Source of the DNA: Hydrangea macrophylla
Lineage: Eukaryota > Streptophyta > Magnoliopsida > Cornales > Hydrangeaceae
Length of the DNA stretch: 64,000 nucleotides
NCBI GenBank assembly: GCA_033977485.1
Contig: CM066988.1
Location: forward strand, 28,190,501-28,254,500
Direction: 5' to 3'
In this document: in pieces, positions 19,401 to 52,000 of the stretch
How positions within the stretch are numbered: the stretch's first letter is position 1
Layout of the letters: each line of letters starts with the position of its first letter
Position numbers and translations under genes: made by a program
The notes under the pieces: model-generated
What the model saw: only the letters and a program-made list of their open reading frames with translations
Database searches by the model: none
What the model was told of the DNA's origin: nothing

Positions 19401-19542
19401 TTCAAGGGCATTTTGGTCATTCTAAGCATTTTGAGAGATAGAACTAACTTCTAGGAGTCCTTTTTGAGTGTTTTTTTATCATTGTGAACCACCAAGCTAT
19501 GGGTCTCCTAAATCTGATAGTCAAAAAAATGGGGTGTCTACA
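16423..19542 (-). repeat. G2 left (3') LTR, 3120 bp
   Basis: It matches the three pieces of the right LTR with visible divergence (several percent plus indels, including about 150 bp near 17520 absent on the right). A minus-strand TATA box (CCTATATAAACC) is at about 18655. The ORFs in this LTR (16308, 17018, 18614) are not conserved in the right copy and carry no domain. Confidence 0.85.
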
Positions 19543-26350: not shown

Positions 26351-26651
26351 AAAGTTTCTAGATGAAATAAGGATACATGACGGGAACGGGAACAGGTGAT
26401 GATGGTGATCATACTGTCTAGCAAGATTTCATAATCCTATGTCTTAGGACCAACAAACAAGGTTTGCGGTGTATATCTTTGTGAACATGGAGCAGACATC
26501 CTTACCATGGTGCCTAGGCAGGTCAACTCAATGTGGTCACATGTGTGTGATTGCCTTGGGAATCATAAGAAGGAGGTTCTGCCTTATGCCACATAAGCAA
26601 CTACACCGCGCAGAGGTTCTGCCTCATTCCACATAAGCGTATAAGCGCCTC
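26351..26651. other. G2 leader next to right LTR
   Basis: Two copies of a motif around aggttctgcct and ccacataagc lie at about 26572-26635. A normal primer site is not obvious, so the exact inner end of the right LTR is uncertain within about 30 bp. Confidence 0.4.
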
Positions 26652-27232
26652 TGTAAGCCCACCCCCGTTCCTTGCTTCCCGCGGGGTTTCGGAATTGATT
26701 TTCCTTTAGTTTTGAAATCAAAGTTGATTTGAAGAAAAGAAAAGGTCTATTGAAAATAGATATAGAGTCGCCACTTGGTCTTTAGGGAACCAAGAAACCC
26801 AATTTTGACTCACCCAAACAGATAAAGGGCAACAGCATTTCATAACCAAAGAACTTGGCTCGGGGTTTTGGTACGAGAGAGGAAGGAGCCTTTGTCATGA
26901 ATAAACACCCTTAACTCACCCCGTCTTTCGACGGGCCTCAATTAGCATCAAAATTATCATCTTATACTATGTTTCATTCGACAATTAATACTATGATAGT
27001 ATATTACATCTCATAAGAATTTTGAAATGGAAAATCAAAAGATAAGATATCATTCATAAGATCTAGCCAAGTATCACACAATGCAAAGGTGAAAGATCAC
27101 ACAAACAAACCTAGGATAAATCGTATAATCACATATCAAGTAATCAAGTTTTCCTAATCTAAAGGGGACATGAATTGTTTTTTTTAAACAAATAATCAAA
27201 GAAAACGAAAAATGCTTAGCAAGCTAGTATAG
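26652..27232 (-). repeat. G2 right (5') LTR, first piece
   Basis: It starts tgtaagcccacccccgttcc and matches 16437-17012 of the left LTR. It ends at the B1 target site tatag (27228-27232). Confidence 0.85.
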
Positions 27233-27903
27233 TGTTTTGGCTAAAAATTAAATTGACCCGGCGTGCCAGGGGCTTTGTACGAAGACCCAAACGTGTAGCC
27301 AAAATGATCCCTAATCGTTGTTTGATACGGATCAGGCGATGTTGGGAAGTAGGGATGACCCTTCCCTTAAGGTCCAATCACTCTGATGCGAGTAATTTAG
27401 TTGAGCGATGAAATTGAGTACAAAATTCTAATCAATAGATTCGAACAAGTGATGCACTGTAATTGATATGCTTACATTGAACAAGCAGCAACACTAATAC
27501 ATAAAAAAGAAAAGAAAAGACATTAACAAGGCAAGTCTTGTACATGGCTGGAGGAAAAAGGAGAAAAGTAAAACAACATATGATCTTGACAGTAGCAAGT
27601 AAACGTGAAAAGAAAAAAAAACAGTAATGGGTGAGCAATAGACTGCTTTGAGCCGCAAGGGGCTGTGTGGCTGTGTGTTAGCCTCCCTCAAATGTTTATT
27701 ACCTTTGTGTATATATAGATGTGCTAAAAATAACTCCCCCACTAAGTTGGCCACTTCCCCACTAAGTTGGCCACTTCCAAATCCATTAACCATTACCCAC
27801 TAGCAAAACTCCCCCACTAAGTGTATGGTTAATTTGCCACTTGTATAACACACAACCGGTCATAAATATAAAAAATATGTTTTTATATTTTAGGGTGTAA
27901 ACA
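27233..27903 (-). repeat. B1 left (3') LTR (671 bp)
   Basis: It runs from TGTTTTGGCTAAAAATTAAA to tattttagggtgtaaaca. A minus-strand TATA box (CTATATATAC) lies near 27712. It carries a 19-bp internal duplication (ccactaagttggccacttc) that is single in the right LTR. Confidence 0.9.
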
Positions 27904-27954
27904 ATGCCCCCCTGGTTCTTTGAAAATGAAATGTAATGTAATTTTTGAAGAACC
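27904..27954 (-). promoter_or_regulatory. B1 polypurine tract with stem-loop
   Basis: Plus strand atgcccccct is followed by GGTTCTT (27914-27920), AAAAT, a 13-nt loop, ATTTT and AAGAACC (27948-27954). The stem is 7 bp plus 5 bp with a symmetric 2x2 internal loop. On the minus strand it runs directly into AGGGGGGCAT and the LTR. Confidence 0.75.
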
Positions 27955-28683
27955 GTGTATACAATTAGACCGTTTTTTTTATTTTTTATTTTGGTGCAAC
28001 ATCGGTCTCAAATCAAAGCCCGATATCAGTCTTGGATTAGTCTGATATTGGTCTCAAAGCACTAGCCATTTCCTGACTTGTCTCTGTAGATGCCATATAA
28101 ATACCTCCATCACCTTCAAGTGTGGGTCCAACACTTGCACCCATTTGATATGTAGTCAGATGGCCTCGATCCTATGGTACTGACTGAATGTTGGGTCACC
28201 AGCCACCACCATAGCACATGTGGTGGATATCTTGGGACCACCATGATAATTGAGATGTGCATTTGGGCAAATACAACACTATACATGCGTTACAGAAAAG
28301 AGACCGATATCGGATATCATTAGTATGATGGATTTACCTTTACCTGACACTTGGGCCCCACTTGTTTGACCTTTTCTTTAACAAATTTGTTGCCACCCGC
28401 TGCAGAGGAATTGTCTGATTTAAATTGATGAAGCACGCATTCCTTCATCAGTCACATTTTTTCGATTAGAAAATGATATCATATTATGTGGCTGCTCCAA
28501 TTAAGGCATCTGAACCCACAAATTCCCACAAAGGTACAATATTCATATCGGTCCATATAGGCCCGATGTATTGTGGTGACTGAAATTAAATTGCAAAATC
28601 GGTCAATATTTTTTAATTTTATAATAATACTATAATTGAAGGAACCACCAAATTAGATGCCAAATTTGATGGGCTCCACAAAG
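27955..28683. other. B1 3' untranslated interior
   Basis: No ORF is seen. ccgatatcgg, atcggtc and cccgat words recur, as in A and B2. Confidence 0.5.
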
Positions 28684-29232
28684 TCAAAGTGGAAGTAAGT
28701 TTACAAAGACCAAGTAAACAATTGGCTTTGTGCATAAACTATTTTTGGCAATAATGCCAAAATAATTGATCAACTCCTCGGTGATAGCTCTCCTCAAAAG
28801 GGGTTGCTCACTTTTAATAAATTTGGGGGCCGCAATAAAGTCACTCAGCCTATGTGAAACTTGCCCCCCAACCGCCTTCTCGTCGTCACCAACACTAGCG
28901 GGAAGAGTATTAGCCAAAATAGAAATTATCGGCCTATCACTAACAATTTTTTTTTCGCTGTCTTGCCCCCCAACCGATTTAAAATGCCTTAAACCGAGAT
29001 GGACAAAGTGACCAATTTCTTGATTTGTAGAGGCATCATCGGCCACTTTTGGCCATTTAAATTTTTTCGCGGCCTCTTGAAAAATTATTTTCATGGCCGC
29101 TATCATGGTTGTCCGTGTCTCTTCGAGGTGGAGAGTATACTCTTTCTGAACACGGATCAATTCTTCGAACTTGTGAAGAAAAACGTTGAAAAAGTCACAC
29201 GAATCATTTGATAAGTGCTTTTCCATCCTCAC
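28684..29232 (-). CDS. B1 ORF, 182 aa, unknown function
   Basis: This is the only intact ORF of the B family. The first 70 residues look helical (FEELIRVQKEYTLHLEETRT), the middle carries two GGQ motifs (VGGQDSEKK, VGGQVSHRL), and the C-terminus is hydrophobic (YLVFVNLLPL). It starts at ATG 29232, only a few bases from the primer site, which suits a gag position. No capsid, zinc knuckle or enzymatic motif is visible. The same ORF in B2 is broken and a related acidic ORF in A is broken, so selection is not evident. The plus-strand ORFs at 28766 and 28999 are shadows. Confidence 0.6.
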   Translation of the reverse strand: MRMEKHLSNDSCDFFNVFLHKFEELIRVQKEYTLHLEETRTTMIAAMKIIFQEAAKKFKWPKVADDASTNQEIGHFVHLGLRHFKSVGGQDSEKKIVSDRPIISILANTLPASVGDDEKAVGGQVSHRLSDFIAAPKFIKSEQPLLRRAITEELINYFGIIAKNSLCTKPIVYLVFVNLLPL

Positions 29233-29238
29233 TCGGCT

Positions 29239-29256
29239 GTCCCACCGGGTGTGCCA
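29239..29256 (-). promoter_or_regulatory. B1 primer-binding site
   Basis: On the minus strand it reads TGGCACACCCGGTGGGAC, three bases after the 5' LTR. It is shared with A and B2 apart from one or two bases. Confidence 0.75.
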
Positions 29257-29259
29257 AAT

Positions 29260-29911
29260 TGTTTTGGCTAAAAATTAAATTGACCGTGCGTGCCAGGTGC
29301 TTTGTATGAAGACCCAAACGTGTAACCAAAATGATCCCTAATCGTTGTTTTATACGGATCAGGCGATGTTGGGATGTAGGGATGACCCTTCCCTTAAGGT
29401 CCAATCACTCTGATGCGAGTAATTTAGTTGAGCAATGAAACTGAATACAAAGTTCTAATTAATAGATTTGAACAAGTGATGCACTGTAATTGATATGCTT
29501 ACATTGAACAAGCAGGAACACTAATACATAAAAATGAAAAGAAAAGACATTAACAAGACAAGTCTTGTACACGGCTGGAGGAAAAAGGAGAAAAGTAAAA
29601 CAACATATGATCTTGACAGTAGCAAGTAAACGTGAAAAGAAAAAAAAATAGTAATGAGTATGCAATAGACTGCTTTGAGCGACAGGGGGCTATGTGGCTG
29701 TGTGTTAGCCTCCTTCAAATGTTGATTGCTTTTGTGTATATATAGATGTGCTGAAAATAACTCCCCCACTAAGTTGGCCACTTGCAAATCCATTAACCAT
29801 TACCCACTAGCAAAACTCCCCCACTAAGTGTATGATTAATTTGCCACTTGTATAACACACAACCGGTCATAAATATAAAAAAATATATTTTTATATTTTA
29901 GGGTGTAAACA
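29260..29911 (-). repeat. B1 right (5') LTR (652 bp)
   Basis: It has the same ends as the left LTR and differs by scattered substitutions and loss of one 19-bp repeat. Minus-strand TATA is near 29742. Confidence 0.9.
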
Positions 29912-30979
29912 TATAGTGCATGTTAATCTTTGAGACAAGGAGATCTCTCAATCCCCGGGACAGATGAGAAGGAAGATTAGATCGTGGGGGGAGCATGAAT
30001 GTATGAACAAGTTCATTCCTTATAATCTCCTTAGATTAGGAGTCAAAAAAACTCCAAATCTTGCATGGATGCAGTGTATGATCCTAGAATGTGCAAAGGT
30101 TGTAGTGTATTTGTGTACATGGACTTTCTAAAGTTACTTAAAAGTCTAAAATATGAATAAATGTATGGAGAATATTATCATGGGATATGCACAAATATAG
30201 TATGGATCACTTGCTAAGATATAAACTAATTTGAAGTACATATAAGCATCAAATCAAAGGATGGAAGTAAAAGTATACTTGCTGTGAATAAGTGAGTTGA
30301 TCTTATGAAATTGGAAAAGTGAGGTTAGACATGTTTTTAATGCATGATTTTTTACGGGGATCATCCTTATTATGTCTAGAAACAGAGTCCGTATGATACA
30401 GATAGTTCCCTAAGACACTGAAGTTCAAGGGAAAAATGAGTTGGGACCACTCCTTTTGGAAAGGTTTTCTGAAAAACAAGTTGAAATTCAACCTAGCTGC
30501 TGTGACTGCAACAGCAGAATGTTTGAAAGGAATGTTTGGGTCCAAATGGACCCTTTTCAAGTGTTTCCAAGTCAAACCAAAAATCTTGGGTGTTATCCAA
30601 CAAGTTAAGAAGACTTTCCAAGTGGTCCTGTATTCATATATTGAGTATTGGACTCAGAATAATTCTTTGAAGTTAAGTAGCTCACTGTTTTGAAGATTTT
30701 TTTTGAGAAAAACAATGTTTATTCCTAGGATTCCAAATATTGGGGGTTTTAGAAAGGCTTTGAAATAGGGGTTTTGAAAGTATATTTTCAACACTCAAAG
30801 AGGATTAAACCACTTGTTATGTCAACCTCTAATTCATTTAGAGAACCTCCAAGATTAGTGGAAAGGTTTGTTTTATTTTGGAAATAAGCTCAAGAATACA
30901 TAGGAATGCATTGGGGTTATGATCATCATCTATCAAACATGTTTTTGAGGTCAAAAGCTACTATCTATTAGGAATCACT
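29912..30979 (-). repeat. G2 right (5') LTR, second piece
   Basis: It continues the G2 LTR after B1 (matches about 17020-18228 of the left copy) and ends with the C2 target site tcact (30975-30979). The ORFs at 30303 and 30436 are non-coding overlaps on opposite strands. Confidence 0.85.
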
Positions 30980-32594
30980 TGTTAGGAAATTGCGTTCCCA
31001 GAATCCGTTGACAGTGCATATAAGTTGGTACTGCAAAAATTTTACGTGAAAACTATAATAACCCTACAAGGGCGGAACTAGGGTTACCTTGAACTGCAAA
31101 ATTGGATTGCTGTAGTAGATGAATCGAGAACACGGGCTCGATAACAGCTCACGATCTTCTACCGTATTCCTTTGCTGCCAGAATATCGAACTGAGTGTGG
31201 GCTCTTTCGAAATCCTTTTAGTTTTCTGCTCTTCCCTCTTTACGTTCTATTTTCTATTCCCAGTTATAACACTCTCTTTGATTGCTATGACGATTCAATC
31301 CTGATCACATTGATCCGACAAAGATGTGTTCGTCAGGAGGATCAAACGATCTCCGATTTACTTGAATTTTTAACAGCAGCTCCGTCTCGACGTCAGGAAC
31401 GTTGTGTAAAAAATTCAGCAACTTTCGATCAGTATCGAGAAGTCCGAAGCTCTTTTAGTGAGCGTTGTCCGACGCTAGCGATCTACACTCCTATGTCTCT
31501 TGAATGCTCACAGAGACTAGGGTTTGGTGGAAACCCTTCTAGAAGAAAGCTAGGAGGTCAAGGGAAGCTTAGAATATGAAATCATGCAACCTGAGAGAAG
31601 AGCCAAGGCAGCATATATATAGGCTACGATAGGGACCATAAGAAGTCAATAAGGAATAGGCTTCCTAATGGAATTAGGAAACCCTAATTCGAACTGAATC
31701 AGATTCCTATTTCCATAAATTATAATTCATACCACTAAAGAATTATAATTGCACTCCTACCCTTATCTCAAAAATATATATCGAGCTCCATGTTATTAAA
31801 TGCTTATTATCTCCCCATGTTAAGATTACAGATATCCATTAATTAAATATAATTACTGACAATCATATTTAATTAATTTCTTAAAATTCCTTGAGATCCT
31901 CTGCTTAACTTATCTGATATGTCGGATACAAAATCCACCTGCAGGGTTTGACATAATCAAAACTTATAAGCTTTCTCAAGGGGATATCATCAATCCCAAA
32001 ATTGAGACATGGATTCCATCATTAATTAATATCCACCACACAATTAATATTGCCACCCAATCCAATGAGATATTGACCCATTTAAGGATCTCACCCTTTT
32101 AGGGATCAAAGTGTAAATATCAAATGTACGTGTCTACAAATTAACTTAGGATTTAGAGCATAAGCACTCATAATAGCCATGAGGTATTAATTATCTTATA
32201 AGTCAGTATAAAGATAATTACCCCAAGTCGGTCCTGTTTAATACACAAAATGTACCAGCGTGGTGAGTTGAAACTATACCGTTTCCCGCAGTCAAGACAA
32301 ACCTACTACAACACCATGCTGCAGTCCTACCGATGGTGTGTCCAATCCCATCTAAGACTGTAAACCAAAATCTTACATTCTATAATATCTGATGGCCTGA
32401 TCTTCCGTGTGTAAGCCGAACTCTACACACCAAACCACCTACTATATAGAATGAGAGACACACATGCATAATATTAAATAAATAATATAATACAAACATT
32501 GCCCACACAGATTCTCATAAAAATGGAATAACTTATTTTATTAAAATAATAAATTAACTACATAAAGCATGGCTTTTAGTATATATCACTAACA
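30980..32594 (-). repeat. C2 left (3') LTR (1615 bp)
   Basis: On the minus strand it starts TGTTAGTGATATATAC and ends GCAATTTCCTAACA. A minus-strand TATA box (CCTATATATATG) is near 31610-31621. The ORFs at 31119 and 31172 recur identically in the right LTR (37946, 37999) because the LTRs are identical; no domain is seen in them. Confidence 0.95.
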
Positions 32595-35500
32595 ATCTCC
32601 CACTTAGACTCAAAGCCATGAAGTGACACACCTCACTCCAACTAATGGCTCTACCTCCTAGGATAAACACATATCCTGAGGTAGACTTTCTGGAATCCCT
32701 ATCTGACATGAAATCAGAATATGTGTACCCAATGGGTACAAAACTGTCTGCTTGGTAAACTAACATATTGTCTCGAGTCCTTTTCAGGTACTTGAGAATA
32801 TTTTTCACCACAGTCCAATATTCTTGCCCTGGATTAGACTGATATCTACTAACCATGCCAACAGCAAAGCAGATGTCAGGTCTAGTACATAACATAGCAT
32901 ACATTAGGCTTCCTACTGCCGAGGCATAAGGAACTGCCTTCATCTTCTCTATCTCATCAGGTGTCTTAGGACACTGATCCTTAGATAGAGTAATTCCGTG
33001 TCTGAAGGGAAGGAATCCCTTCTTGGAATCTTGCATGCTAAACCTTGCAAGGATATTGTCAATATAAGTGCCTTGTGACAAGCCCAACATCCTATTCTTG
33101 CGATCTCGCATAAGCTTGATCCCTAGGATGTGACCGGCTTCTCCCAAGTCCTTCATATCGAATAGACTGGATAACCATACCCTTACAGAAGATAATACCC
33201 CCACATCGTTTCCGATTAGCAAGATATCATCCACATAAAGTACTAAGAACACCACCACTCTTCCATCATGTTTCTTGTACACACAAGATTCATCCGCACA
33301 TTGATCAAAACCAAAAGACTTGATTGCTTGATCAAAACGGATATTCCAAGACCTAGATGCCTGCTTAAGTCCATAAATGGACTTCTTAAGCTTGCACAAC
33401 ATGTGTTCTTGGCCCTTCGCAATGAACCCGTCTGGTTGCATCATATAGATGCACTCGTCAAGATTTCCATTTAGAAATGCTGTCTTGACATCCATTTGCC
33501 AAATTTCATAATCGAAATGTGCAGCAATGGATAAGAGAATCCGGATAGACTTCAGCATTGCCACCGGCGAAAAAGTTTCCTCATAATCGATTCCTTCTTT
33601 TTGAGTGAACCCTTTCGCAACAAGCCTTGCTTTAAAGGTTTTCACCTTACCGTCTGCTCCTCTCTTCTTCTTATAGATCCACTTACATCCAATGGGTTTT
33701 ATTTCATTAGGTGGTTCTACAAGATCCCAGACTTGATTGGAGTACATGGACTCCATTTCAGACTTCATAGCCTTTTGCCAAAGATCTGCATCTTTATCTT
33801 GGAGTGCTTCATTGTAGTTACAGGGGTCGGTACCTTGTTCGTCAGGGACCCAGTCATAAGACTCTCCCAAGAACATATACCGGTCAGGTTGAATAATAAC
33901 CCTCCCACTACGACGAGGCACAACCCGTGTCTGTGTATCACTGATATTTTGTTGTGAAGATTCTGAACCTAATACACCATTATCTACACGTTGTACTGGT
34001 TCAGGAACCTGCGTGTTAATGGTTGGTTCGGGATCTACACGAGTTTCGATAATCCTCCCACTACGACGTGGTAATGGAATATCGATAACTCTTTCTTGTG
34101 GTGTTTCTTCTCGTACCGTTGGTATCGAAGAAGTATATGTCGGTGTCTTTCCTCTCATTTCCTCTAGAACAATACGGCTTCTGGGCTTGTGGTCCATAAC
34201 ATAGTCCTCTTCTAAGAATGTGGCATTGGTGCTAACAATAACCTTCTGATCCTTAGGACTATAAAACAGACCACCTTTAGTTCCTCTTGGATACCCAACA
34301 AAGAAACATACTTCTTTTCTTGATTCCAACTTTTCTGCGTTCCCTTTCAGCACATGTGCTGGACTACCCCAGATCCGAACATGCCGCAGACTAGGCTTTC
34401 GCCCAGTCCACAATTCCGTGGGAGTAGTAGGTACTGACTTAGATGGTACCAAGTTTAGAATGTATGCGGCTGTCTCTAATGCGTGTCCCCAAAAGGAAAT
34501 TGGTAAATCCGAATAACTCATCATAGATCTTACCATGTCCATAAGAGTCCTGTTCCTTCTTTCTGCCACACCGTTCTGCTGAGGCATACGGGGTGCAGAC
34601 AATTGGGATGTAATCCCTTGCTCCAATAAGTATTCCCTAAACTCTCCCAAGAGGTACTCTCCACCACGATCAGATCGTAGTGTCTTGATACATTTACCTA
34701 GACGCTTCTCCGTTTCAGCCTTGAAGTCTTTGAATTTCTCAAAGCATTCAGACTTACGCCGCATCAAATAAATGTACCCATACCTTGAGTAATCATCGAT
34801 GAAAGTGACAAAGTACTCAAATCCCCCTCTTGCTTGGACAGTCATAGGACCACACAAATCAGAGTGAACCAGTTCCAACGGCTCTCTTGCTCTATAGCCC
34901 TTGGCCGAGAATGGCCTCTTGGTCATTTTACCTTCCAAGCAGGATTCACAAACTGGAAGTGCCTCCACTTCCAATGAGCCTAATGGCCCATTTTGAACCA
35001 GTCTTTGAATCCTTTTCAAATTAATATGACCAAGGCGTAAGTGCCAAAGATGCGTTTGGTTCATCCTCGAAGGTTCTTTTCTCTTAAATGGCAAACTATT
35101 TGTGTTATTCAATTCATTAAGTTGCAGTATAGGAGAGATATGATTTATAATATAAAGATCATCTACCAATTGACCAGAACAAATAAAACGTTTATTTTCT
35201 TTAATAACTACTACTTTATTAAAATGAACTGAATATCCATTCTTTACTAAACTAGAAACTGAAACTAAATTCCTTCTAATAGAAGGTACATAAAAGCAAT
35301 TTCTTAATATTAAAATTCTATCTCTACCAAAACTAAGATGTAGATCTCCTACTGCAACTGCTGCTACTCTCGTAGCATTTCCCATATATAGATAAATCTC
35401 TCCATCACTGAGCTGCCTGGTTCCCTGGAACCCCTGCAAAGAATTGCATACATGATCAGTGGCTCCCGTATCTACACACCAAGTACCGGTAGATCGGACC

Positions 35501-36351
35501 GCTAAACACGATTCAACAACTAGTAAATGAGATTTACCTTGATTGTTCTGTCTGGCGAGATAAACTGGACATTGCTTCTTCCAGTGTCCTGGCTGCTTGC
35601 AAACAAAACATTTGCCTTTAGGCTTTCCCGGTTGTCCTCGTGGCCTTTGGATTGGCGGAGGACCCGCGGCCTTCTTTTGAGCCTTTTTCATTTTCTTCTT
35701 GCCTTTCGGCTTTGAAGTAGAACCTTTCTCAAACACAAGAGCACTCCCTGACTTTCTGTTGAGACCCTCAGCTGCCTGAAGTTCTTTAAGCAGCTCCGCC
35801 AAGGTATATTTAAATTTATTCATGTTGTAATTGAGGCGGAATTGCTTAAAAGACTCTGGCAGTGACTGGAGTACGATATCGACCTGGGTTTCCCCGTCAA
35901 TTTCAGCTCCAAGGATCTCTAGTTCATTAAGAAGAGATATCATCTTAAGAACATGATCCCTTACAGGCGTCCCCTCAGCCATGGTTGTGTTCATCAAGTC
36001 TTTCATAGCAACCTGCCTAGCAGCACGACTTTGATCCCCGAACATCTCTCGGAGGCTCTCCATCATGTCATAGGCACTGGTCATTGACTGATGCTGATGT
36101 TGCAGAACATTTGACATGGATGCCAAAATGTAACACCGCGCCATCTCATCAGCCTTGACCCATTTCTTGTGAGCCTGGGTTTCCTCAGCGGTTGCCCCCT
36201 CACCAGGTTGCTCAGGACATACTTGAGTAAGCACAAACTTGTACTCTTCAGCAGTTAACACAATATCCAAATTCCTTTTCCAGTCTATATAGTTTGGTCC
36301 AGTAAGTTTGTTTTCTTTAAGTATAACAGCAAGTGGATTGAAAGTACCCAT
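32554..36351 (-). CDS. C2 Gag-Pol polyprotein, 1265 aa, RNase H truncated
   Basis: One uninterrupted frame. Domains in order: capsid (about 1-200), zinc knuckle C248-C251-H256-C261, protease DTG (294-296), integrase zinc motif H437-H442-C468-C471, integrase catalytic D498-D561-E597 with 35 residues between the last two, RT with D954 and YVDD (1039-1042), then the start of RNase H. At the RNase H start the usual first Asp is Tyr (YTYSD, 1209-1213). After AISWSE (1235-1240) the frame jumps into 3' untranslated sequence and stops inside the LTR. The Glu and later Asp of the active site, still recognisable in C1, are missing. The polyprotein would make particles, cut itself and integrate DNA, but should not degrade RNA in hybrids unless helped in trans. 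The plus-strand ORFs within it are shadows. Confidence 0.95.
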
Positions 36352-37793
36352 TTAAAAGCCTGAGAATCACACAACATAAATAATTACGTTTGGGCAAAAA
36401 TTACTATGGATTCGATTTGAAAATATTGGTTCCCTCTACCATATTTGAAAGGAATCCGCCAGCAACCTGATACACCGTGAATAGTATGACTCGATGGGAA
36501 GCCATATACTATCCATCATTTGTTCAGATAGACAATTGCCTTTTAATTTTACTATCCAGGCAATGTACTTTGCCTAATAAAATTAAACTGCTGACTTGCT
36601 TTGGTCCTATAAATAATAACAGTGACTCAGATGGAGAGGATATTATTATTTATAGCTAAGTGTATACCATCACTTAATTCTAGGTCAAGAGTTCTGTGAG
36701 GAACACCTCTGATGGAGAGGTGACCCACACCAACAATCACCCAAAACATTCTTTTAAAGAAGTTTGTACTGATGATTCCATGATCAACTTCATCCGATAG
36801 GGAGGATGACACTAGAGCCATCACACAAAATTAATCATATCATCTACAAACCAGTGATGGAGACCATGGGATTTATACTTGATAAATTCCCTCTCCCACT
36901 TAGAATTTTAAAAAAATTGAGGGTTATAATTTTTTTAGAAAAACTTTTAATTTAATTAATAAAAAATAATGGAATACTTGACAAGGATTAATTCATCCTT
37001 ACTTGTGAAACCCACATGTGTAGATAATAAAATCATTCTATTCTCATGATTTTAGAAAATAAGTACTTATGTTTTCAAATTATGGAATTAGTTTTATTTC
37101 TAAATACACATGTAGTTGTCCATCATTTTAAATTAATTAAATTAAACATGCAGCTAGACATCTGAAATAGGTCTAGGAACAATTATCCATGTTGTCCTAT
37201 TCATTAAACATGAAACAATAATAATCATTCAATCACACATAAATAAGGAAACCACAATAAAATAGGAATCCCACTATTATGGTCAAGCTGCAACTCTTGT
37301 GAAGAAATCTTCATGGAACCCAATTAACTCTATGTCTCCACTACGCAACTGCCTTCCAGAACTCTTTTCTGAAATAGCCTCCAAAAATTGCCTCCAGATT
37401 GCTTTCTGAAACTGCTTGTAAACTGTCTTCACGAACTGTCTTCACGGATTTACTTGAGATATATTACACAAACCCTATGCCTCCGTAAAGGAGTTCACAT
37501 GCTATTTCTTTGCAGTAAATTAACCACACATCAATCAAGCGTGGGATCCAATACACACAAATCCTATGCCTCCATAAAGGAGTTCACATGCTATATTAAA
37601 ACAGCAAAATTAACCACGGATAAAACCATCGTGGGATCCAATCACACAAAATCCGTGACCATAATAGTGGAATAAGAACACTTCAAAACAAGGGTTAGCA
37701 CAGTTCTACGTTCTATCCATCCATCAAAACACGCATAAGATCTGTTTTATTGGACAACATGGTTGCATCCAACCCATACGCAGAATCAACGTT
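36352..37793 (-). other. C2 5' leader, 1.44 kb
   Basis: No ORF is supported. Near gag, motifs gatggagagg and gatagggagg recur at about 36630, 36710 and 36797, comparable to tccgaggggagg in C1. A direct duplication of about 90 bp lies at 37466-37650 (words cctatgcctcc, aaaggagttcacatgctat, gtgggatccaat). Confidence 0.6.
37466..37650. repeat. About 90-bp direct duplication in C2 leader
   Basis: Both copies hold cctatgcctcc, aaaggagttcacatgctat, attaaccac and gtgggatccaat. The small plus-strand ORF 37388-37675 follows the duplication and is not recognisable. Confidence 0.75.
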
Positions 37794-37805
37794 GCTCTGA
37801 TACCA
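37794..37805 (-). promoter_or_regulatory. C2 primer-binding site
   Basis: On the minus strand it reads TGGTATCAGAGC, the standard plant copia site complementary to initiator tRNA-Met, one base from the 5' LTR. Confidence 0.95.
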
Positions 37806-37806
37806 C

Positions 37807-39421
37807 TGTTAGGAAATTGCGTTCCCAGAATCCGTTGACAGTGCATATAAGTTGGTACTGCAAAAATTTTACGTGAAAACTATAATAACCCTACAAGGGC
37901 GAAACTAGGGTTACCTTGAACTGCAAAATTGGATTGCTGTAGTAGATGAATCGAGAACACGGGCTCGATAACAGCTCACGATCTTCTACCGTATTCCTTT
38001 GCTGCCAGAATATCGAACTGAGTGTGGGCTCTTTCGAAATCCTTTTAGTTTTCTGCTCTTCCCTCTTTACGTTCTATTTTCTATTCCCAGTTATAACACT
38101 CTCTTTGATTGCTATGACGATTCAATCCTGATCACATTGATCCGACAAAGATGTGTTCGTCAGGAGGATCAAACGATCTCCGATTTACTTGAATTTTTAA
38201 CAGCAGCTCCGTCTCGACGTCAGGAACGTTGTGTAAAAAATTCAGCAACTTTCGATCAGTATCGAGAAGTCCGAAGCTCTTTTAGTGAGCGTTGTCCGAC
38301 GCTAGCGATCTACACTCCTATGTCTCTTGAATGCTCACAGAGACTAGGGTTTGGTGGAAACCCTTCTAGAAGAAAGCTAGGAGGTCAAGGGAAGCTTAGA
38401 ATATGAAATCATGCAACCTGAGAGAAGAGCCAAGGCAGCATATATATAGGCTACGATAGGGACCATAAGAAGTCAATAAGGAATAGGCTTCCTAATGGAA
38501 TTAGGAAACCCTAATTCGAACTGAATCAGATTCCTATTTCCATAAATTATAATTCATACCACTAAAGAATTATAATTGCACTCCTACCCTTATCTCAAAA
38601 ATATATATCGAGCTCCATGTTATTAAATGCTTATTATCTCCCCATGTTAAGATTACAGATATCCATTAATTAAATATAATTACTGACAATCATATTTAAT
38701 TAATTTCTTAAAATTCCTTGAGATCCTCTGCTTAACTTATCTGATATGTCGGATACAAAATCCACCTGCAGGGTTTGACATAATCAAAACTTATAAGCTT
38801 TCTCAAGGGGATATCATCAATCCCAAAATTGAGACATGGATTCCATCATTAATTAATATCCACCACACAATTAATATTGCCACCCAATCCAATGAGATAT
38901 TGACCCATTTAAGGATCTCACCCTTTTAGGGATCAAAGTGTAAATATCAAATGTACGTGTCTACAAATTAACTTAGGATTTAGAGCATAAGCACTCATAA
39001 TAGCCATGAGGTATTAATTATCTTATAAGTCAGTATAAAGATAATTACCCCAAGTCGGTCCTGTTTAATACACAAAATGTACCAGCGTGGTGAGTTGAAA
39101 CTATACCGTTTCCCGCAGTCAAGACAAACCTACTACAACACCATGCTGCAGTCCTACCGATGGTGTGTCCAATCCCATCTAAGACTGTAAACCAAAATCT
39201 TACATTCTATAATATCTGATGGCCTGATCTTCCGTGTGTAAGCCGAACTCTACACACCAAACCACCTACTATATAGAATGAGAGACACACATGCATAATA
39301 TTAAATAAATAATATAATACAAACATTGCCCACACAGATTCTCATAAAAATGGAATAACTTATTTTATTAAAATAATAAATTAACTACATAAAGCATGGC
39401 TTTTAGTATATATCACTAACA
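37807..39421 (-). repeat. C2 right (5') LTR (1615 bp)
   Basis: Same length as the left LTR, with one substitution found by eye. TATA near 38437-38448 on the minus strand drives the element. Confidence 0.95.
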
Positions 39422-40741
39422 TCACTCACCTCAAACTTCTTGTCATCATCTAAATGATGATGATTTAGTAAGTAGATAATGAAAGATCAAAAGAAATGGA
39501 GTGAGAGGAGATGAACAAATATATGAACAAGCAAGTAGATAGCAATCAATAGATGATATTCATGGTGATTTTGGACTTGTAGCTTGATCTTTCACTCATA
39601 TATGGTGACTTTGGACATGGAAGTAGCTTCCTAACTCAAGATTGCTGAAGAATGGTGGTTTGAGAGGGTTTGGTGTGAAATATGTAGAAGAATAATGGAA
39701 GAACTTGAGTTTAGAACTCACTTTCTATAGAAAATCAGTAGAGGAAGCTCCATTCTTCACTTCTAACTCTAAGCATATCTCTCATTCTCTCTACGACTTT
39801 TCCAAGCTTTGCACTTGGCCACCCCCAAAATGAAGAGCAAAGGGGGATTTATATAGGCCAATTTGGGGTGATTTTGGGATTTAGAAAGTGCTCCCATTGG
39901 TCCCAAACATCGGTGAACATTAAACTACATCATTTTGGCTTTCAATTATTCAATTTGGACCCCCAAAATAAATTACAAAAATGGCTCCGGAGGGATTTGA
40001 ATGCCACCATGACACTGGCCATGTGCCGCCGCGGTAGTGGCCTAGTGCTGGCGGGTACTGCTCCTTAGACGTCCAAAAATTTGTATTTAGGCCCCCCAGA
40101 GGTTTCGGTATTAGCGAAAAGGCCCTATTTTGTCCGAAATTCACAGAAAATGCGTACGAACACCAAATTGAGCTTGTGATATACCGTTGGAAAGGTAATG
40201 GAGTCTAAATTCCATAAAAAATAGTTCGGAGATGGGTCACTTTGGAAAACTTTGCGGTATTCACGATAAAAGTCGATCAGATCCCCTTTTTCACCTTCGA
40301 AAATTTGTAATAAATTCGTTTTAAATCTAGAAATTACGTATGATATACCATTGGAAAGGTATTGACCTCTAGTATCCATGAAAAATATTTGAAAAATGAT
40401 ACGACACTCCGGTTTCAAAGTCCACTTTTAGGTCAAATCGGTCGAACCTAGGATTTCCATGAAGTTCTGGGAAACTCTGGGAGATCCCAAGAGCTGACGT
40501 TTTCGTTTGATTTTGCTTCAAAACTCATTTTAAGTACTTTTTTTTACGGCATAGCATGTTTTCAAAACTTTCGGTCCAAATCTGGGAGTGTTTGAGGCTT
40601 TTAGGGGCATTTTGGTCATTCTAAGCATTTTGAGAGATAGAACTAACTTCTAGGAGTCATTTTTGAGTCTTTTTTGATCATTGTGAACCACCAAGCTATG
40701 GGTCTCCTTAATCTAATAGCCGACAAAATGGGTTGTCTACA
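39422..40741 (-). repeat. G2 right (5') LTR, third piece
   Basis: It continues the G2 LTR after C2 (matches about 18224-19542) and ends ggttgtctaca at 40741. Minus-strand TATA (CCTATATAAATC) is near 39850. The ORFs at 39868, 39950 and 40125 are not conserved. Confidence 0.85.
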
Positions 40742-41990: not shown

Positions 41991-42446
41991 CATGTTATAT
42001 TCATCAAAAAGTACTACCCAAACTATGGAAAATAACAAAAAAATTAACCCAACAAAAAAGTGATTTCACTTGTTAGAACTTCCCATCAAAATTTGAACCT
42101 TTGTACTTACAAAAAAAAAAAGGTTTCATTAATTAATTACTTGTATATATAAATTAATAATAAAAGAGCAAAGGTAAGTTTTGATGTTTTGAGAGACCAA
42201 AATGGGTTCCGACACTCGCATGTTATATTCATCAAAAAGTACTACCCAAACTATGGAAAATAACAAAAAAATTAACCCAACAAAAAAGTGATTTCACTTG
42301 TTAGAACTTCCCATCAAAATTTGAACCTTTGTACTTACAAAAAAAAAAGGTTTCATTAATTAATTAGTTGTATATATAAATTAATAATAAAAGAGCAAAG
42401 GTAAGTTTTTGATGTTTTGAGAGACCAAAATGGGTTCCGATACTCG
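41991..42446. repeat. 228-bp tandem duplication
   Basis: Copies start with catgttatattcatcaaaaa at 41991 and 42219. They are almost identical, differing mainly in a poly-A run, and end with the first part of the 178-bp unit (accaaaatgggttccgac). Confidence 0.9.
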
Positions 42447-43735
42447 GAACGACACGGGGCCGAAACCTACCCTTCCTACTCATCTAAATAGACTTGTAGG
42501 AAGAAACGGTACGGAAATCTGACTCACAGATTGCAAGTTAGATGCAAATACACAAATTCATAGACTTAGGCCTTCTAAAAATAAGTTTTGATGTTTTGAG
42601 AGACCAAAATGGGTTCCGACACTCGTAATGACACAGGACCAGAGCCTACACTTCCTACTAACCTAAATAAACTTGTAGGAAGAAACGGCATGCAAATTAG
42701 ACTCACAGATTCCAAGTATTATGCAAATACGCAAATCCATAGACTTAGGCCTTTTAAAACTATGTTTTAACGTTTTGAGATACCAAAATGGGTTTTGGCA
42801 CTCGTAACGATACGGGACCAACCTACACTTCATACTCACCCAAATAGACTTGTAGAAAGAAACGGCACACAAATCAGACTCATGGATTGCAAGTTAGATG
42901 CAAATACACAAATTCATAGACTTACCTAAATAGACTTGTAGGAAGAAATGGCATACAAAAACTAAGCTTTAACGTTTTGAGAGACCAAAATGGGTTTTCG
43001 CACTTGTAACGACACGAGACTGGAATCTGCACTTGCTACTCACCTAAATAGACTTGTAGGAAGAAATGGCATGTAAATCGGACTCACAAATTGTGGGTTA
43101 GACGCAAATACGCAAATTCATAGACTTACGCCTTCTAAAATTAAGTTTTGATGTTAGAGAGACCACAATGGGTTCTGGCACTCAGAATGACATGGGATTG
43201 GAACCTACACTTCCTAATCACCAAAATGACTTGTAGGAAGAAACGACATGCAATTTTGATTCACGGATTGCAAGTAAGACGCAAATATACAAATTCAAGT
43301 TTTGACATTTTGCGGGACCAAAATGGGTTTCGACACTCGGAACGATACGGGACTAGAACCTACACTTCCTACTCAACTATATAGACTTGTAGGAAGAAAT
43401 GGCATGCAATTCTGACTCACGGACTACAAGATAGATGCAAATACGCAAATTCATAGACTTAGGCCTTATAAAACTAAGTTTTTAAGTTTTGAGAGACCAA
43501 AATGGGTTCAATTACTCGGAACGACAAGAGATTGAAACCTACACTTTCTACTCATCGAAATAAACTTGTAGGAAGAAATGACATGCAATTCTAACTCACA
43601 GATTGCATGTTAGATGCAAATAAGCAAATTTATAGACTTAGGCCTTCTAAAACTAAGTTTTGACATTTTGCTAAAATGGATTCTGGCACTCGGAACAACA
43701 CGGGACCAGAACCTACACATCCTACTCACCTCGTG
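42408..43735. repeat. Tandem array, about 178-bp unit, eight copies
   Basis: Units contain gagagaccaaaatgggttc, gacactcgtaacgacacggg, cctacacttcctactcacc, aaatagacttgtaggaag and gcaaatacgcaaattcatag. Starts are near 42410, 42586, 42762, 42965, 43145, 43297, 43475 and 43653. Copies differ by a few percent to 15 percent and in length by indels. The small ORFs here are array products. Confidence 0.85.
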
Positions 43736-44189
43736 GTTAATAGACCAGTCACAAAAATTGCAGCATGGTGGACGGATGTAATTCCGTTCATGTGTCTTGT
43801 CTTAATAAGAGATAAGTTTATTATTTCAATAATTTAGAACAAATAAAAATTGTTTCAGAAAATTTATTCTCTTTAAACTACTTTTTTTTAATTACTGAAT
43901 GTGAGCCCCTAAAGAACCCACAAAATAATGATTTTTTACCTCTATGTTTTCCTCCTTGGGCTAAAAAGGCATGTGAAGAGTGGCACTGCACTGAAATTCC
44001 TAAATGCCATTCTATCACTGAAATTTTGAGTAAAACTAAGAAATAAGTAGTGATGGAATGACATATGTAAAGAGCATTGAGATGTAAAGTAAAGAGCATG
44101 TGAGTTGTTCCCTTAAAGCAAGGAATGAAATCTATAAAATAAGCAAAAAGAAAGAAAAAGAATTAATGTTTATATTACTATGAAATTTG
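43736..44189. other. No gene seen
   Basis: AT-rich sequence between the array and the callose-synthase fragment. The ORF 43878-44099 has no domain. Confidence 0.4.
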
Positions 44190-47109: not shown

Positions 47110-47709
47110 AAACCCATACAAAACTTCTTTCCAAATCCTGGTCTTGCTTGGTTCGAGCGTGAGATACCATAACTAGGCGGCACCAGTTAAGGTTTATTAG
47201 AATAGGATGGCCATCATTATGGTGCTCAGTCCACTAGGCTGGAAGGCCCCAATGCACATTTGGACGTGGCTACGAGGATTCCCTATCCCATCAAATTTAT
47301 CAAAGATCAGCATTTTGAAACCAACGGGAAACATCTCACGAACTCTATCGTACAATCCTTCTAACTCCAGCAGATAGGTGTCAACTCCCTGAGCTTTACG
47401 GACCACTCTCTCAAGCTTTTCTACCTTTTCAGCCATTTTTGCCCTCTCGGCTTTTTCCTTCTCTATTTTCTCTCTCTCCGCTCGTGGTATATTGACTCTT
47501 TGTACCTCTGGTTCATCATACCAGTCTTCTTCTCTTGCAATCGAAGGGTCAACAATCTGTGGATTTGCCTGAGGTGGCTGTCGTGCCATGGTCTCCATCA
47601 TAACCATCATGTGGTTCACATTTTTGACCTACCACCTAATTTGCTCGGCTTGTTGTTCTACCAATGCCCTTAATTCTGCTACTTCCCTTGCATTCCCCTC
47701 AGTTGCCAT
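47110..47709 (-). pseudogene. G3 gag remnant
   Basis: The frame starts at ATG 47709 (MATEGNAREVAELRALVEQQ). An in-frame TAG comes soon after, then an open stretch (47619-47197) with an acidic/basic helix (EREKIEKEKAERAKMAEKVE) and the capsid words GVDTYLLELEGLYDRV, FPVGFKM, FDKFDGIGNPRSHVQM and GAFQPSGLS. Stops follow, then TLTGAA. Order and words are those of Ogre/Tat Gag. It is not functional. Confidence 0.8.
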
Positions 47710-48996
47710 GATGTCCTATCTTCTTACTAACCTTGTCATGGAATCTCTGTACCAAATAGGGCTTGATTTGGGTGCTATCTTGCCTACAGTCACATTTTTT
47801 TATAATTTTATTTTGATCAATTTTAATTGATTTTAAAAGAATGATTATTCTCCATTCATTTTATTTTTTGCACTAATTTTATTGATTGCAAATGCTCATG
47901 AATGGTTCATATGTCACACGATATAATTCATGTGTGTGTGCTTACTCTATATGCCAAAGAAATGAAAATCCTAATCCTAACACATAAGACACATAAGCAC
48001 ATAAAATCCTTGTCCAAGTCAAGTGTGCCAATTTCTCCTTTATTGTGATCCTCACCACCCTCTCCAAGGTTGGATATTTGAAATTTTTTTGAAAAGTCAT
48101 TTTGAAGGCATCCCTTGGATGATAAGATTTTTTTTTGAAAACAATTCTTGAGAAATCTTTTGAGAAAGACGATGTTTAAACATTTCTCAACAAATATGAT
48201 CAGGTTGAAGTTTTGCTTTGAAATTCATTTGAAAAATATTTCTCCCAAAAACAGTTCCTAAGATTTTTGGATTTTCCTTTTGAAGATTGATCATGTGAAA
48301 ATATACCTTAACAAAGGTTAGTTTGGAGCTTTGCTTGACCAAAAGAAAACATTCGGGGATAAAAGGTGATGGTTTATCAAAATCTTGTTTGCTATCAAAA
48401 GTGAATTTAAACTTTCGGATGGAAGGATCACATTAATGAATTATCACCGTACTTGTCATGAATTCGAATGCATACAAGGTTAATGATACTTATCTTGACA
48501 ACAAATAAGAAGTGCAATCTTATAATCAAAATTTGGCACCTTCCCAAATGTCATGGGACATGAGAAGGAGTTGCTTAAAAGGTGATTAAAAGGTTATACA
48601 TCATACACCAAGTAAGCATCATCATCATCTCAAATAATCCCTTCCGGGCATACAAAAACTCCCTAACACATAACCCTAATCAAAAATTGATTTCCTAAGA
48701 TTGAAAGGTTCTATAGAAGTTATTATACAAAGGCTGGGTTTTGGTCAAATAAGGGACCCTTGACATATATTCGATAGGATGCTTTATATACAAACACATA
48801 GTACGAGATCAAGGGTGATCACACAGCTCCATGATAGCTTAGCCGATTGGGTTGCCCCGAGCCACCATGGTCATAGATCCGTGCGATCGACTGGCAAGAC
48901 ATGCAAGTGCAATGCAACGGGCACACAAAAATTAGCTAATTTGATTAGAAGGATGCTTACAAGTCTAATCTTCAAGTGAACCTAAAATCAAAAATT
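47710..48996 (-). other. G3 5' leader, no gene seen
   Basis: AT-rich, non-coding sequence between the primer site and gag. The short ORFs at 47588 and 48779 have no domain. Confidence 0.5.
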
Positions 48997-49046
48997 CTGG
49001 TCTGCGAAACTAGAGATTCTGGGTTCGATTCCCAGTAGAGTCCCCA
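48997..49046 (-). promoter_or_regulatory. G3 primer site: DNA copy of the 3' part of tRNA-Arg (positions 27-76)
   Basis: On the plus strand 50 bp fold as a tRNA from position 27 to the CCA end: anticodon stem (ctggt/actag), 7-base loop ctgcgaa, 5-base variable region, T-arm with ttcgatt loop (ctggg/cccag), 7-base acceptor strand, discriminator and CCA (49044-49046). Every segment has the canonical length. The 5' part of a tRNA is absent. The LTR starts three bases later. The minus strand would bind the primer tRNA. The anticodon reads GCG (Arg). Confidence 0.9.
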
Positions 49047-49049
49047 GAT

Positions 49050-52000
49050 TGTGGATACGGGACCCTAACCACATTTTAACTTTTTCAAATTCAAAAATGA
49101 GTCACCACTTAATTTTTTAAGAAAAAATAACAAACCATTTTAAAAGCAAACCGATCCTTTAGAAATCAGAGATTTATAGGTCCGAGGATTATGGAATGAG
49201 AGGGGAAGGAGCTCGGCAGACTAAAACACACCCTCTCAACCTATCTCATGACAGGCCTCTACTCAACATCCCTTTTTATCAAATTATTAATCTACGCATG
49301 CCCTCAACTAATACATAAGTATAAGTATACATTCCAAAAGCATGTTGAAAAGATTGTAAGATTGCTAACGATCAAAGGCATACAAAATTACATAATTCAA
49401 ATAGCAAGCGAGATGACATGCAAATACGGAACAAAGAAACTTACTCGGGATCTAGCTACGATATAGAAACGTGCATATGCATACAAAAAATAAAAAAAAA
49501 AACCCTAGAAAAAGAGTCTTTAATTCACATATTACACATAAGGCAAGACCTAGTCTAAGGTGTCGCGCATGGAGTCGAAAATCAATAAAATCAAGAAACA
49601 AAATAAACGAGTGAATAGTCAAGAAATTATACCTCAATAGTGCTACAAAACAAAGGTTAGTCCACATGCTTTGAACACAATATAATATCAAATCCGAAAT
49701 TATACCAAACTCCTAGCTTAAATCTAACAAACATGGAAAAAGTTGACAAAATCATAAATTCCTTCCAATTTGTTGACATCACAACATCTCTATAGATATA
49801 CAAGTCTCAACTAGGAGCCAATGCTATGTCGATATAGATATGATACAATCTCCACATGATTAAAAAGAATCCATGACTAGGCTCAACCAATTATGGCTTA
49901 TCACAATACAAGACAATGTCCTAAATTACAAGAATCAATACACATGTGAAGATAATGAATGCATGAACATGAATAAGTTGAGAATCATTCATTGATTTAG
50001 ATCAGTTAGCCTCTAGATTTAAGCTTAAATAACTTTGGTCAAAACATTTTTTAAGTTTTGGGTCATAGAAAAATTGTTTGGACCATCATTTACAAGGTTT
50101 ACTGAATCTATCGCAGAATTTCAGGAATTACAAAGAAAGAATCAAATATTCAAAAATAGAAAACTCATGGTTCCCATGGTTTGATCTTAATGCTTTTTGG
50201 ACACAAGGTGCCTCTGTTCTAGTGTCTAACCCAAAAAGTAAATCAAGAATTAAACTGTCCGATCTCCGAGAATTGGACAATGACCAGACACTACTTAGAA
50301 TTTATAAACTCTCTGTCCAGAGATCTTGTGTGATTTTCTAAAAAAGTAAACCAATCAAAATTTGTTCAAAATATTTAGGGAATCTTACTAATTCCTTTAA
50401 ATTCATGGAAACAATTATTTGAAGCTCAAAATCTTGGTTCAAGGCTCTGATCTAAGCAATTTAAAACTAACTTACTGTTATGGAATTTCGAACAGAGAGC
50501 AATTACTTTTCAAGACTCATGATCTAACCAAGCTAACCATGAAATCTAGTCAAAATAAAATTTACAGTGATAGATCTATGAGTTAAGAACAAATTCCAAT
50601 TAGTCTCATCCAAATTCAACGCATCATGATTTAATTAAAAATCTTTGAACACAGGTCGTCATTGAAATCACTGCACCATTGTTGAATTGACATCCATAAT
50701 GCAAAACCAAGCTAGATCTAGGATTCTTTAGAGTATCTAGACCAAGTATGATTATAGTCCATCATAATATCACTTGTATATCATAGAATTCATGGATTTA
50801 GCCTTGAAGAAATCCCAACATAGAACTCTAAAGAGAGCCTAGACATGGGTTCTTAGGACTTACTCAATCCCTTAAGTGAATAAGAGCTCTTGAATTCAAT
50901 AATCAAACCAAGAGAACAACTAGACCCGCATCTAACCCCTCTCCCAAATATATGATCCTTGAGGATTGGAAACTCAACTTCTATGAACTTCAATGAAACA
51001 TGAAGAGTTTCATAAGCCTCCACATGGATGAACCAAAGCCATAGGCATAGGCTTAGATTCATGGATTATCTAAAGGTATCATTTAAATTTTCTCTAACCA
51101 TCTCATAATTATGGAATTATAGAGAATTAGAGGAACTAATCTCAAGAAATTCCAATAGTATATAGAAAGTTCTATGGAACTCAAGAGAAGAGTATGAACA
51201 AAAGGAAATGAAGTCGAGTCTCAATTGATGATCCAAATTGAATTTTACTTTGAAACCTTGTTTTATTTTAAATCCAAACACTATTTAGACCCAATTCAAC
51301 AAATACAAGAGAGAATTCAATCACAATTCTAGTGGTGTGTGATGAAATGAGGTTAGAAGAGACTTTTTAAAAATTGTGTAAAAGATCCTAACGTATTCTA
51401 TGAATTGTGATTGAATATAGATTAAGAGCAAGTTAAATAAGAGAATTACCTCTAAAATTCTCAGAATTTTCTTTTGTTTTACGAAGATCTTCAAATTCTT
51501 AAAGCTCTTCTTCACCGTTCTTCTTCAATCTGTTCTTCAAATTTCTTCTTCAATCTCTTCAAAACTCAAGTAATTCACTAGCTTCTTTGCCTTCTCAAGG
51601 ATTCCATCAAGTTCCAACCCATGTAATGGAGATAAACATCTACTTATATAGACCATTTTAACAGTAAATTCAGGGTAACCATCCATGAGCAATGGAATCA
51701 ATACTTATCTAAAGAAAAACAATCTGTTATAGCTGACGGAACTCAACGAGTTATTTGCGGCACTCAACGAGTGCTAGTGTGGCTCTCACTGACTACCGGG
51801 ATGGCACTTATTGAGTGCCAGCGTGGCACTTTGCAAGTGCTACCAGATTTGCCATTTGCTGGCTTGTATTGATTTCAATTTTGTCTTTTCTTAAATTTTC
51901 TTTTCCTTTATTTTTCAAAACCTTTTCTCAAAATGGTTTAAACAATAACCCATTTTTTTCAAAAATTTTTTTTTCACAATACCTCCAAACTTGATTTTAT

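Follow-up and report, generated by a model that had tools for sequence, protein, structure and literature searches.

The 64,000-nt stretch of Hydrangea macrophylla DNA analysed here (the window) holds a broken member of a very abundant LTR retrotransposon family whose tRNA primer site is extraordinary in length. Window positions 48997–49046 match tRNA-Arg-like positions 27–76, with all arms canonical in length. A usual primer site is about 18 nt long, the plus strand being halted by m1A58; products of far greater length are regarded as dead ends. The best single explanation for the 50-nt site is its capture from a mature, inosine-bearing tRNA-Arg, a reading to which we assign a probability of roughly 55%.

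On the forward strand, 48997–49046 divides into CTGGT/CTGCGAA/ACTAG (positions 27–43), AGATT (44–48), CTGGG/TTCGATT/CCCAG (49–65) and TAGAGTC (66–72), followed by C73 and CCA; the anticodon loop, CTGCGAA, is of Arg type, and the discriminator C directly precedes the CCA. This exact split agrees with the extent and canonical arms proposed in a first-pass annotation of the same DNA, and the site scores 31 bits with the Rfam tRNA model, above the gathering score of 29; with an E-value of 0.017 for the window, it is the sole match at that level in the 64 kb. The annotation had also held that the 5′ part was lost, and the 5′ third of the tRNA is truly missing: a more permissive scan with the tRNA model aligned A/T-rich leader where the D arm belongs, and ARAGORN reported no tRNA gene in the 64-kb window. 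Lacking a D arm and an ARAGORN gene, the site is not the complete cloverleaf by which a nuclear tRNA gene is recognized.

The 50 nt comprise two parts, both on the minus strand. The conventional 18-nt primer-binding site, TGGGGACTCTACTGGGAA, occupies 49029–49046 and is complementary to tRNA positions 59–76; a 32-nt extension at 48997–49028, complementary to positions 27–58, takes in the anticodon arm, the variable loop and the 5′ half of the T arm with its loop to position 58, again with canonical arms. Opposite tRNA position 34 the element carries a C at 49004 (minus strand; sense G34). Every tRNA primer site starts with TGG and so includes the complement of CCA; the CCA tail, which had been put forward as evidence, is therefore no separate evidence and is uninformative about the extension. 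The site has the TGG 0–5 nt from an LTR end and the complementarity of at least 12 nt to a tRNA 3′ end that define a primer site; the match does not end near position 58–59 after 18 nt, and instead runs on to position 27 in all 21 rows of the alignment described below.

The annotation had placed the sequence at a retrotransposon primer site, and its surroundings bear this out: it lies 3 nt from an LTR end, on the minus strand, with gag remnants beyond. Read on that strand, the order is the LTR end ..GTATCCACA (...CCACA), the spacer ATC (49047–49049), TGGGGACTC..., 32 nt of further tRNA complement, and the leader. The 3′ part of the 5′ LTR (49050–49734, minus strand) has its ...CCACA terminus at 49050 and can be traced as far as 49734, the limit of the match to a second copy, L042; identity between the two copies over 48378–49734 is 81%. 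Of 28 additional 10-kb stretches, 8 flanking the window and 20 sampled at intervals along its contig, only the one with L042 contained a copy, whose site has the full 50 nt and G34. In L042 two stretches align, both in one orientation, with a single stretch of L036, and a direct repeat in L042 is therefore probable. The window copy itself is incomplete, since a search of the window and of 80 kb of flanking sequence found no second LTR belonging to it.

The gag remnants begin about 1.4 kb beyond the primer site and lie in one frame interrupted by stop codons. They include a 143-codon open piece (47200–47628, minus strand; ..FDKFDGIGNPRSH..) and a continuation in the same frame at 47110–47199 (minus strand), where a three-frame view shows stop codons (..TLTGAA-LWYLTLEPSKT..). 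Its motifs suggest that the open piece is a Ty3/gypsy gag of the Tat/Ogre kind; it gave nothing in Pfam at its cut-off and no match in a protein search. The assignment to the Tat/Ogre (OTA) group draws on these motifs and on the use of tRNA-Arg, with gag remnants alone adjoining the site; we call the element Tat/Ogre-like. This part of the window is best explained as the primer site, with the adjoining end of the 5′ LTR, of a broken, minus-strand Ty3/gypsy (Tat/Ogre-like) LTR retrotransposon.

Within U5, the motif GTGGTGACTC (49099–49108, minus strand) is common to other LTRs: it recurs at 26774–26765 (minus strand) in another LTR of the window, at 16562–16553 (minus strand) with one change, and at 3231–3240 of L002, a contig discussed next. 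Its consensus, GTGGYGACTC, is a repeat, within the LTR, of the 9 letters that open the tRNA-Arg primer site (TGGCGACTC). The motif may make a further contact with the tRNA, or may stem from an ancient duplication of the primer site.

L002 (NZ_QPKJ02000028.1) offers a contrast in length. It is filed under a Solirubrobacter assembly and is probably plant contamination of that assembly, given its low GC (0.35) and its plant-like LTR end and primer site. An LTR-like end, ..TTCACA, is followed by the spacer GAT, at the same place as ATC in the window, then by TGGCGACTCCACTGGGGA and by sequence unlike tRNA. The window element thus resembles the L002 element in LTR end, 3-nt spacer, 18-nt site and U5 motif, but in L002, a single control, only 18 nt match the tRNA, in keeping with the textbook account.

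We then searched the genome (2.22 Gb, 19 contigs) with an 81-base query, 48980–49060, which returned 1,460 first-look candidates; the 40 that were scored, including the window, all span the full 50 bases at 93–100% identity. From the 39 other scored matches, 20 sisters of about 200 nt each were fetched from many contigs and joined with the window into 21 rows, none of which was dropped; these sisters were picked from the best matches to the window copy, a choice that would miss shorter sites. In every row the tRNA-like part covers 27–76, with A/T-rich leader on one side and spacer on the other, the end at 27 being defined by canonical arm borders. All 20 sisters among these best matches keep the 32-nt extension and reach position 27; an end of the similarity at position 58, which the first-pass annotation had named as contrary to its reading, is not seen in them.

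An exact 31-mer (positions 29–59) with G34 occurs at least 3,000 times genome-wide (1,502 + 1,498), against 127 occurrences of its A34 counterpart, and reversed-pattern controls for both gave 0. The tRNA likeness of 48997–49046 is therefore not due to chance, as the site and its flanks are repeated across the genome and the controls are empty. The family is very abundant, with many 50-nt sites, and the over-long site is inherited family-wide. The expectation that many copies would share 27–76 with G34 was borne out (19/20 sisters have G34); the idea that this copy is the fossil of a single event of its own was not. A further alternative, that a tRNA retropseudogene or SINE fragment came to lie beside an LTR by chance, would account for a tRNA-like sequence with CCA and a lost 5′ part, but is contradicted already by the placement of the tRNA-like part 3 nt inside the LTR end in 20/20 fetched sisters from many contigs, the same place as the 18-nt site of L002; we consider it hardly credible.

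The 21 rows separate the letters of the family from those of the window copy. Position 34 is G in 20 rows and A in one, and A is found in 21/21 rows at positions 37, 58 and 67. Other positions vary: 41 (C in 13, T in 8), 60 (C in 16, T in 5), 66 (T in 14, C in 7) and 73 (G in 18, A in 2, and C in the window only). The window copy's T41, T60 and C73 are minority or private letters; G34 and A37 are those of the family. Eight of the 127 A34 places were opened, and all eight are elements with the same leader, with GAT after the CCA in seven and TAT in one. Such A34 copies are as expected from C-to-T decay of the strand that the element itself occupies. A tRNA gene could be present among the G34 places beyond the sisters or among the other 119 A34 places; the 100 of the 127 A34 matches that were listed include no G37 version.

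Which tRNA the site matches can be addressed from several sides. The primer is presumably tRNA-Arg(ACG), an identification based on the element's anticodon loop. Most of the 20 sisters have G73 and C60 in the 18-nt part, and in L042 and six of the 20 sisters (L046, L047, L057, L059, L060 and L064) this part is the exact complement of UCCCCAGCAGAGUCGCCA. According to the published reports, that sequence has been described as 'miR5072' in raspberry and lily, a safflower small RNA reads CGTTCCCCAGCAGAGTCGCCA, and those of mulberry, Coccomyxa, pitaya and Murraya have a GGAGTC variant. The small RNAs named miR5072 in the seven plant or algal studies resemble a mature tRNA 3′ end with CCA, and this is what we infer them to be. 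Of the seven, four extend as far as position 58, each with T/U at it, which may reflect m1A58 misread in sequencing cDNA.

There are tRNA-Arg(ACG) genes on two viral contigs, L010 (7310–7384, minus strand) and L011 (1895–1969, plus strand); their GTCTACGAAACCAGAGATT is the same as in L042 except at position 34, and both share the anticodon arm, with A37. Looser patterns matched six viral contigs, four in a chance-like manner and the two that carry the tRNA-Arg gene. The anticodon-plus-T-arm pattern was absent from the viral contigs and prokaryote genome contigs scanned, and the 18-nt site was absent from the viral contigs scanned; the prokaryote genome contigs gave four exact matches to it, three bacterial-looking and the fourth L002. 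As the T-arm and acceptor pattern matched one viral tRNA-Asp gene, that half alone is not diagnostic of Arg.

The letter at position 34 bears on the link to a mature tRNA. Eukaryotic tRNA-Arg genes reading CGN have A34, which is edited to inosine, and eukaryotic tRNA-Arg genes with a GCG anticodon are not known. G34 is a strong clue because of this editing and because a primer site fitting I34 has a precedent in Bianca elements, as described in one survey (PMC6317226), and an inosine origin of G34 is likely.

Capture would have proceeded as follows. Once, in an ancestor, plus-strand strong-stop DNA would have passed position 58 of the attached primer tRNA and halted after position 27, a stop that m2,2G26 would fit as a block. 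Inosine 34 of the mature tRNA would have been copied as C in the plus strand, giving G34, and the over-long end would have been incorporated in a new copy at the second strand transfer. Afterwards the first 18 nt would be re-copied from tRNA in each round and the extra 32 nt passed on via genomic RNA; pairing between the long site and the tRNA could then reach deep into the anticodon arm, which may be why the site is retained.

Several results favour this capture reading. All 40 scored matches have the full 50 nt, the G34 31-mers far outnumber those with A34, and the A34 places opened are all elements. The 18-nt part in L042 and six sisters is the exact complement of plant small RNAs that resemble tRNA 3′ ends. 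When the window copy is compared with L042, 31/32 positions agree in the extension, against 86/99 in the adjoining leader and 72/100 in the first 100 nt of the LTR side; the 18-nt part is identical at 15/18.

A published HIV-1 study bears on the capture reading in both directions (PMC13191261). In its favour, strong-stop DNA goes past position 58 when m1A58 is missing, and native tRNA yields a minor product to position 37; against it, activity in transfer is confined to products with ends at 58, 55 or 54, so that an extra step would be needed. An accepted strong-stop product ending at 27 would be new.

Position 58 complicates the account. The first-pass annotation had read the site as a trace of reverse transcription through m1A58, and here its argument fails, as A58 is present in 21/21 rows without m1A trace. 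Copying through m1A58 often gives a mismatch, and the unaltered A in every row counts against error-prone copying through that base. Either the copied tRNA was without m1A58, or T was correctly inserted, or a match to the tRNA was subsequently maintained at the site. The annotation had also drawn attention to position 37. Plant tRNA-Arg(ACG) has G37; A37 may need no modification story, since the same arm of the viral tRNA-Arg(ACG) genes has A37. As a whole, its interpretation holds for the extent, the place, the missing 5′ third and the shared G34, and gives way on the one-copy fossil, the CCA and the m1A58 trace.

G34 and A37 could be the letters of the host tRNA-Arg gene itself. The 32-nt extension might have been acquired when the element recombined with, or switched template to, a tRNA gene, a pre-tRNA or a tRNA pseudogene; G34 would then be genomic or an early mutation, and no modification would be recorded. 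Such an origin would agree with A58 lacking an m1A trace and with the A37 of the anticodon arm shared with the viral genes; on the other hand, GCG tRNA-Arg genes are not known from eukaryotes, and a gene copy has no natural stop at 27. We judge this origin unlikely, and capture from the mature tRNA remains our preferred reading.

Variation among the sisters bears on possible constraint on the long site. Pairwise differences were computed over six blocks among the 20 sisters, the window row excluded. The extension (27–58) has the lowest mean pairwise difference of the six (0.027, with 4/32 columns varying), a value that is a hint only because the sisters were selected by likeness to the query. 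The 18-nt part (59–76) stands at 0.056 (3/18 columns), the two leader blocks at 0.049 (10/36) and 0.088 (16/36), and the 12-nt block of spacer and LTR end at 0.043 (1/12); further into the LTR the mean reaches 0.39 (43/52). The higher variability of the 18-nt part than of the extension counts against the capture reading, since renewal of that part from one tRNA species in every round would not lead one to expect it.

One may postulate that selection for extended pairing maintains the extension: the long site would be used now or formerly, pairing would extend across an unwound anticodon arm of the tRNA, C would be kept opposite I34 as its best partner, and the origin of the extension would be left open. 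The low variation of the extension, its near identity with L042 and the Bianca precedent (PMC6317226) all speak for such selection; however, choosing sisters by similarity lowers variation over the whole query, the block of spacer and LTR end is about as quiet, and the 18-nt part is no more uniform. Selection of this kind seems to us distinctly improbable as the explanation of the site. A related proposal is a working 50-nt site, in which strong-stop DNA would regularly run through a tRNA-Arg lacking m1A58 until blocked at position 26, strand transfer would accept the long end, and the genome would store thousands of I34 reads; we put this forward as a tentative possibility.

The family can be set beside several known systems. 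Plant Ty3/gypsy OTA elements (Tat: Ogre, Retand, TatI–III) are non-chromovirus elements that use tRNA-Arg among others, as here; the survey describing them looked no farther than 50 nt from the LTR for tRNA 3′-end matches of 12 nt or more, and in its accessible portion reports no 50-nt site, in contrast to the window family (PMC6317226). The same survey describes half-tRNA-Ile sites in the Ty1/copia element Bianca that, like the window family, fit a tRNA with A34 edited to inosine; the Bianca primer is a half-molecule, whereas the window site starts at position 76 with the CCA of a whole tRNA and continues through the anticodon loop (PMC6317226). In lentiviruses and spumaviruses a primer over-extension sequence, a tRNA match beyond position 58 next to the 18-nt site as in the window, tolerates over-long strong-stop DNA; active products there extend only to 55 and 54, as far as the available portion of the report states, against 32 nt to position 27 here (PMC13191261). 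We found no description of a 50-nt primer site in the open-licence literature, where letter matches were only to a 16-nt tRNA end.

The very many 50-nt sites suggest that transfer once accepted a longer strong-stop product, which was propagated from then on. If G34 is derived from inosine, the family holds a heritable genomic record of tRNA editing, and the m1A58, I34 and G26 states of the host could be tested against element sequences. The site also advises caution with primer-site finders restricted to the last dozen tRNA bases.

The window contains other repeats besides this element. A Ty1/copia element at 30980–39421 (minus strand) has LTRs 99.94% identical over 1,615 bp, encodes gag, integrase and RT domains in an open frame of 1,265 codons, and is probably young; adjoining its LTR is TGGTATCAGAGC, which we take to be a usual primer site of the tRNA-Met type. 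A second LTR-like pair, 16435–19542 and 26647–40741, starts with TGTAGACA on the minus strand, its pieces being 89–92% alike, and two insertions, a likely solo LTR (27233–29911) and the copia element, split its right member. A tandem-like array (42402–43778), with a spacing of about 180 bp or multiples thereof and copies 61–83% alike to the reference, separates the gag remnants from the next element.
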